Shown here: one piece after another, positions 31,051 to 31,349 of the stretch
Numbering within the stretch: the stretch's first letter is position 1
How the letters are laid out: every line of letters starts with the position of its first letter
NCBI GenBank assembly: GCA_027011225.1
Contig: JALVAK010000044.1
Coordinates: 1-32,281 of the forward strand
Source of the DNA: Nautiliaceae bacterium
GTDB taxonomy: Bacteria; Campylobacterota; Campylobacteria; Campylobacterales; Nautiliaceae
Direction: 5' to 3'
Length of the DNA: 32,281 nucleotides
The notes under the pieces: model-generated
What the model saw: the letters and a program-made list of their open reading frames with translations, nothing else
Told to the model about the DNA's origin: nothing
Database searches by the model: none
Made by a program: the position numbers and the translations under genes

Positions 31051-31140
31051 TTTTTCCCTTTTTTATATTTTTTCACCCACAACTCATCTCCTTATACTTC
31101 ATCTCTCATATACTCATTCATTCATAAACAATAAAAAATT

Positions 31141-31156
31141 CACTTCACAAGAAGTG
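31141..31156. other. Small perfect hairpin overlapping the large one
   Basis: CACTTC and GAAGTG form a perfect 6-bp stem with the 4-base loop ACAA. Its right half (31151-31156) is also the outermost left arm of the large hairpin at 31151-31255, so the two folds exclude each other in an RNA copy. Confidence 0.5.
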
Positions 31157-31255
31157 CAAATTATTTACCGCTTATAAAAAGCTAAAAAGTGCAAACCGCT
31201 TTGCTTTAAATGCACTTTTTTTAACGCTTTTTATCCGCTAAATTTGCAACTCTTC
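31151..31255. repeat. Large nested imperfect inverted repeat
   Basis: Four stems nest inside each other: GAAG/CTTC (31151-31154 with 31252-31255), TGCAAATT/AATTTGCA (31155-31162 with 31241-31248), ATAAAAAGC/GCTTTTTAT (31174-31182 with 31226-31234), and AAAAAGTGCA/TGCACTTTTT (31184-31193 with 31211-31220). The loop has 17 bases. About 31 of a possible 52 base pairs form. It could be a structured RNA, a bidirectional terminator or a dispersed palindromic element. Confidence 0.65.
31184..31222 (+). terminator. Possible intrinsic terminator (inner hairpin plus T-run)
   Basis: A perfect 10-bp stem (31184-31193 with 31211-31220) is followed on the plus strand by a run of T to 31222. It could also act on the minus strand because the other arm ends in A-rich sequence. 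No protein-coding gene ends here on either strand, so if it works it would terminate a small RNA or a short leader transcript. Confidence 0.4.
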
Positions 31256-31349
31256 ATTTTTTTGTTTATTTAAAACTCTCCACTCAAAACTTAAAACTAT
31301 TTCTCCCTCTTCCCATCTTACCCATCCACTCATACACACACCCATTCTC

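Follow-up and report, generated by a model that had tools for sequence, protein, structure and literature searches.

Short intergenic repeats without genes of their own are known from several bacteria, and some are linked to the insertion sequences (IS) thought to move them. RUP is such an element, and its ends match those of IS630-Spn1, its thought mobiliser (PMC2229807). The Nautiliaceae element described here is likewise gene-less and intergenic, with ends that match an IS; unlike RUP, which is 107 bp long and inserts at TA, it measures about 150 bp, is flanked by an 8-bp duplication, and has a partner of the IS1 family. It shares with ERIC and Correia elements (NEMIS) the form of an intergenic imperfect palindrome (about 107–155 bp in those) with terminal inverted repeats, although its sequence is unrelated, the target duplications differ, and those elements are without a nested core with AT-tracts. 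No matched IS is given for ERIC in a review of such elements. SPRITE, in Streptococcus pneumoniae, is also a dispersed repeat with a terminator-like sequence (PMC10969869), but it belongs to another organism, and the passages of its description consulted do not mention a shared core with different ends. QMITE2 of Coxiella burnetii has the same full anatomy of a MITE, with 7–9-bp direct repeats, terminal repeats, and a structured core, but its terminal repeats are longer and its core is unrelated. The partner resembles the IS1 family, as represented by an ISAba3-like IS (PMC6382973), in its 8-bp duplications and in a two-ORF transposase homologous to NF033558, but it ends in GGYACTGACTAAAT instead of the GGTGGTG/GGTGATG of that family and scores below the family cut-off.

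Typical transposons were reported absent from the genome of Nautilia profundicola (PMC2628731), and no earlier description of the present repeat family was found in the literature searched; Nautiliaceae, bacteria of deep-sea vents, thereby gain a dispersed element that is probably driven by an IS1-family transposase. The best explanation as a whole, which we regard as very probable, is that the hairpin studied here represents a single copy of a MITE (a short transposable element that has inverted ends but no coding capacity), with an IS1-type mobiliser. As a MITE it is of an ordinary kind, in a group for which no report of one was found, and its unusual feature is a core common to elements with different ends.

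The hairpin and its intergenic gap

The window (the whole stretch of 32,281 nucleotides analysed, from a Nautiliaceae bacterium) had been described in a preliminary description as containing nested stems of 4, 8, 9, and 10 bp round a 17-nt loop. All four stems are present at that locus (Table 1), as are three occurrences of CCGCT (31168, 31196, and 31235), a rival small hairpin at 31141–31156, and divergent flanking genes. Folded on both strands, the hairpin beats dinucleotide shuffles, with −25.8 kcal/mol on the + strand (z = −3.37) and −32.1 kcal/mol on the − strand (z = −2.85), and 2 of 200 shuffles equally good in each case. The element reaches beyond the extent first given, 31151–31255: outer inverted arms of 13 nt, 92% complementary and overlooked at first, align with the terminal inverted repeats of other copies, so the true element is longer. 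A covariance model of the family built from 21 copies matched the window at 31125–31275 (E = 2.4e-23). Across the roughly 142 bp of the element there is no ORF of at least 60 aa. The flanks (31081–31123 and 31271–31345) are of low complexity and pyrimidine-rich (ACTCATCTC, AAAACTC motifs), and short matches to query positions of approximately 121–145 are common throughout the window's genome.

Table 1. Positions of the element, its parts, and the adjoining genes in the window
Feature	Position	Strand	Remarks
EamA transporter gene	from 31050	−	PF00892, E = 2.6e-36
Whole element (MITE copy)	31126–31267	+	boundaries approximate, by alignment to copies with ends fixed by target duplications
Left outer inverted repeat	31124–31136	.	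diverged from consensus GGYACTGACTAAAT; partner 31257–31269
Outermost of the four noted stems, 4 bp	31149–31152/31251–31254
Subterminal arm TGCAAATT, conserved TGCAAATTT	31155–31162	+	8-bp stem
Core hairpin, common to MITEs with other ends	31167–31243	+	alignment z = 6 to 10 against structure-preserving shuffles
Core stem 1, 5' arm ATAAAAAGC	31174–31182	+	9 bp with 31226–31234
T of 1x5 asymmetric internal loop	31183–31183	+	faces TTAAC; kept in all subfamilies
Core stem 2, 5' arm AAAAAGTGCA, A-tract and GC end	31184–31193	+	10 bp, 100% with 31211–31220
17-nt variable loop	31194–31210	+	in relatives, GC-rich mini-hairpins or an insert of ~105 nt (L043)
Core stem 2, 3' arm TGCACTTTTT	31211–31220	+	with the A-tract, terminator-like hairpin on both strands
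TTAAC side of asymmetric internal loop	31221–31225	+	opposite T 31183
Core stem 1, 3' arm GCTTTTTAT	31226–31234	+	partner 31174–31182
Subterminal arm AATTTGCA	31241–31248	+	partner of 31155–31162
Right outer inverted repeat	31257–31269	.	pairs with 31124–31136
HTH_3 regulator gene	from 31407	+	E = 2.9e-16

The orthologous gap between EamA and the regulator was located in congeners through orthologues of the regulator. It holds no element in G006, whereas in G002, G004, and G005 it holds an internally deleted copy of about 95 nt in the opposite orientation, with ends ATACTGAC...GTCAGTAT, and in the window a full-length copy with ATAAACAATAAA ends. This pattern of presence, absence, and inversion indicates that elements have entered or left the gap since the genus arose. 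It had been suggested that the hairpin might be a switch-like leader for EamA, and its position in a divergent intergenic region would suit a cis-regulatory leader or switch of either EamA or the divergent regulator. Nonetheless, the gap is empty in one congener and filled by shortened and inverted copies in three, and copies elsewhere mostly adjoin other genes, many in number and in every arrangement, so that we consider this reading highly improbable. The space between EamA and the regulator would instead be a landing site for a MITE that serves neither gene.

A dispersed family and its probable IS1-type partner

Further copies were found in the window's own genome and in related genomes, with matches at the DNA level in 26 of 41 relatives. 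Using the covariance model, 19 of 21 Nautiliaceae genomes were positive, with up to 16 copies, as were 13 of 298 genomes of the class; matches fell in the host family f1 (taken as Nautiliaceae from matching coordinates), in a second Campylobacterota family (f18), and weakly in G168. Exact-pattern matches among named genomes came from Nautiliaceae or Campylobacterales metagenome assemblies, and the same pattern had no match among the virus contigs searched. Most copies other than the one in the window are 145–164 bp long. They are intergenic, and the 70 distinct copies examined for context lie between tandem genes (40, with 24 in the same and 16 in the opposite orientation), convergent genes (12), or divergent genes (11), or at a contig edge (7), showing no favoured orientation and no preference for convergent gene ends.

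The terminal inverted repeats of the family are GGYACTGACTAAAT...ATTTAGTCAGTRCC. Exact target duplications are the mark of insertion by a DDE transposase, whether cut-and-paste or replicative. In a scan that varied both end position and duplication length, neither fixed beforehand, the register GGY|ACTGAC gave exact 8-bp duplications in 10 rows as against 0.14 expected from re-paired flanks, a count diluted by some redundant and spurious pairings among the rows. No other register showed a duplication peak, save a nested one of 6 bp. Examples of the 8-bp duplications are TTTTCTTT (L040), CTTTTCTT (L057), TTTATTTT (L036), AAATTAAA (L045), and AAACAATA (L174). The copy in the window forms a small subfamily with L031 and L056, in which the ends are changed on both sides to the ATAAACAATAAA type, not GGYACTGAC, and no target duplication is visible around it. 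Because of these diverged ends and the lack of a visible duplication, its own transposition is only inferred; it would have arisen like the rest of the family, with its ends diverging since.

A search for the family ends led to a 715-bp element (contig C10 of G032) with both ends intact and two ORFs, which match NF033558, the IS1 family transposase, in the correct order (E = 5.6e-7 for ORF A and 7.7e-8 for ORF B). Both scores lie below the 100-bit cut-off of that model, and the element is therefore taken as a divergent IS1 relative. The IS1 family has two ORFs joined by a frameshift at an A-run, and here the two frames overlap at a run of seven A (A7). The element is multicopy in its genome, with partial copies 93%–96% identical at contig ends. 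The same left end recurs in G001, a genome of the window's genus, on a partial copy (81%), and in G008 on a remnant (83%), which places IS1-type elements with family ends in three genera; the window's own genome, itself incomplete, yielded no intact IS with such ends. Only about 14 bp of sequence are common to the MITE and the IS. Because ends and duplication length agree, we infer that the MITE owes its mobility to an IS1-family transposase acting in trans. The preliminary suggestion of a mobile palindromic repeat was thus right at the level of the family, which is short and non-coding, has terminal inverted repeats and duplications fixed at 8 bp, is dispersed with presence and absence (including an empty orthologous site), and is accompanied by an autonomous IS1-family element with the same ends.

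Other mobilisers were also considered. An IS1595 transposase (8-bp AT-rich target) does not occur in Nautiliaceae, and its two copies in f18 are without the family ends. A system of the REP/RAYT type, driven by the Y1 transposase of most Nautiliaceae, would fit the occurrence of a PF01797 gene in 18 of the 21 genomes of the family, mostly in single copy. However, four genomes (G037, G059, G061, and G279) carry the element without a Y1 gene, a distribution that speaks against this mobiliser, and exact target duplications were observed, which to our knowledge are not expected of Y1 transposases; such a system is very unlikely. The Y1 gene encodes approximately 250–270 aa (e.g., G008:C1:682803 and G000:C143:47568) and is possibly a domesticated RAYT-like transposase.

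A core under three sets of ends

Two other types of element contain the core of the window element. Those in G016 and G020 have ends CAGGGYTGTTTCATGCT and exact 10-bp duplications in 8 of 13 cases (control 0), while those in G168 have ends CTGACCTTACGCAAAAT and 7-bp duplications in 9 of 26 (control 0.08). When the cores of the window, L057, G016, and G168 were aligned, every pairing outscored all 500 structure-preserving shuffles (z = 6.4–12.6); the only weak pairing was that of the divergent L047 class with G016 (z = 2.3). Four Nautiliaceae copies (L155, L156, L351, and L354) have IS1-type ends enclosing an interior of the G016 type, and L364 (G020:C19), with IS1-type ends and the 8-bp duplication TTAATTGA, has a fragment of a CAGGG-type MITE as its interior and is apparently a chimera or junction of two element types. 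The T/TWAAC asymmetric loop and the A5/T5 stem are fixed in all subfamilies, and the pairs flanking them change together (AAAAAGC/GCTTTTT, ATATC/GATAT, and TTTTGC/GCAAAA).

Judged by sequence, the occurrence of a core of about 80 nt under three end types suggests that different transposases carry one and the same module. The core could be a cargo, or a parasite of parasites, that swaps ends to use whichever transposase is available, in at least three systems (8, 10, and 7 bp), and is kept for a function, for example in bidirectional termination or as a hairpin that binds a protein; we give this proposal slightly less than an even chance. The shared core raises the question of whether MITE interiors are modules that evolve independently of the transposase, and for what the core is selected.

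In G168 (f4; e.g., L197–L226), the end CTGACCTTACGCAAAAT matches approximately 150 times with up to 3 mismatches in a complete genome of 2.2 Mb. No transposase or coding partner is encoded in the G168 element regions examined. The matches are mostly MITEs of about 160–180 bp, and the core is found in some only.

Pairing, strand symmetry, and role of the core

Pairing within the family is preserved through two-sided changes and without strand bias. Among 79 distinct rows, 93.7% of cells were paired, a value that leans upward, since the rows include reverse-strand matches of copies already present and the structure itself guided the alignment; two-sided changes numbered 288, as against 92 in shuffled and at most 65 in slid controls. 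RNAalifold on a MAFFT alignment likewise found two-sided changes in 16 of 34 pairs. Single departures from pairing comprised 28 G-T and 30 A-C in helices 1, 2, 4, and 5, and 5 G-T and 15 A-C in the innermost stem in its correct register. This balance of G-U and A-C departures offers no indication that selection acts on the RNA of one strand.

The earlier proposal of a structured small RNA can be restated for the core, which would be a non-coding RNA or its gene, held as cargo under selection on the RNA and merely moved by the termini. Its retention across three end types, the strong covariation, the fixed 1x5 internal loop, and the many copies with UNCG-like loops (CCCTTCGGG and CCCTACGGG) agree with this. 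Against it, selection on an RNA strand should accept G-U more readily than A-C, but neither strand shows an excess of G-U, and orientation to genes is not fixed. Rfam, at gathering and permissive thresholds, has no match in the window and elsewhere just a tRNA edge in L046. We retain the RNA as an improbable rival. Complementarity of the arms could also be maintained by a non-selective route, either template switching or conversion of one arm by the other inside the palindrome, which would suit the strand symmetry of the pairing and the covariation of even the outermost arms despite their wide divergence (ATAAACAATAAA, GGYACTGAC, and CAACAGATTAAA). It leaves unexplained, however, why the 1x5 loop, the A5/T5 stem, and the CTAAAAA and AACG motifs are near-invariant while neighbouring pairs change, and we regard it as unlikely, if less so than an RNA.

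The likeliest role considered for the core is that of a transcription terminator in both directions, a tentative reading drawn from motif and pairing that we hold to be plausible but short of probable. It is based on the presence of an A-tract and a T-tract together with a GC hairpin whose pairs can covary, the features required of a bidirectional intrinsic terminator. The core fits the intrinsic-terminator pattern of a GC hairpin followed by a T-run on both strands (AAAAAGTGCA/TGCACTTTTTTT), and at least 97% of the A5/T5 stem is paired while the adjoining stem covaries. Such a core would terminate transcription both ways, and the element would insulate the gap where it is inserted. A point against this is that copies are not in excess between convergent genes, and a terminator role leaves the outer stem and the fixed TTAAC loop unexplained. 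The variable loop carries an insert of approximately 100–105 nt (GGAGAGCCGTTAAAAAAACGACAACTGCTTGTCGTTTTTAGGC...) in L043 (G016), L176, and L351 (G009), which come from different genomes and have different interiors, and this insert may represent an ancestral long form of the element.
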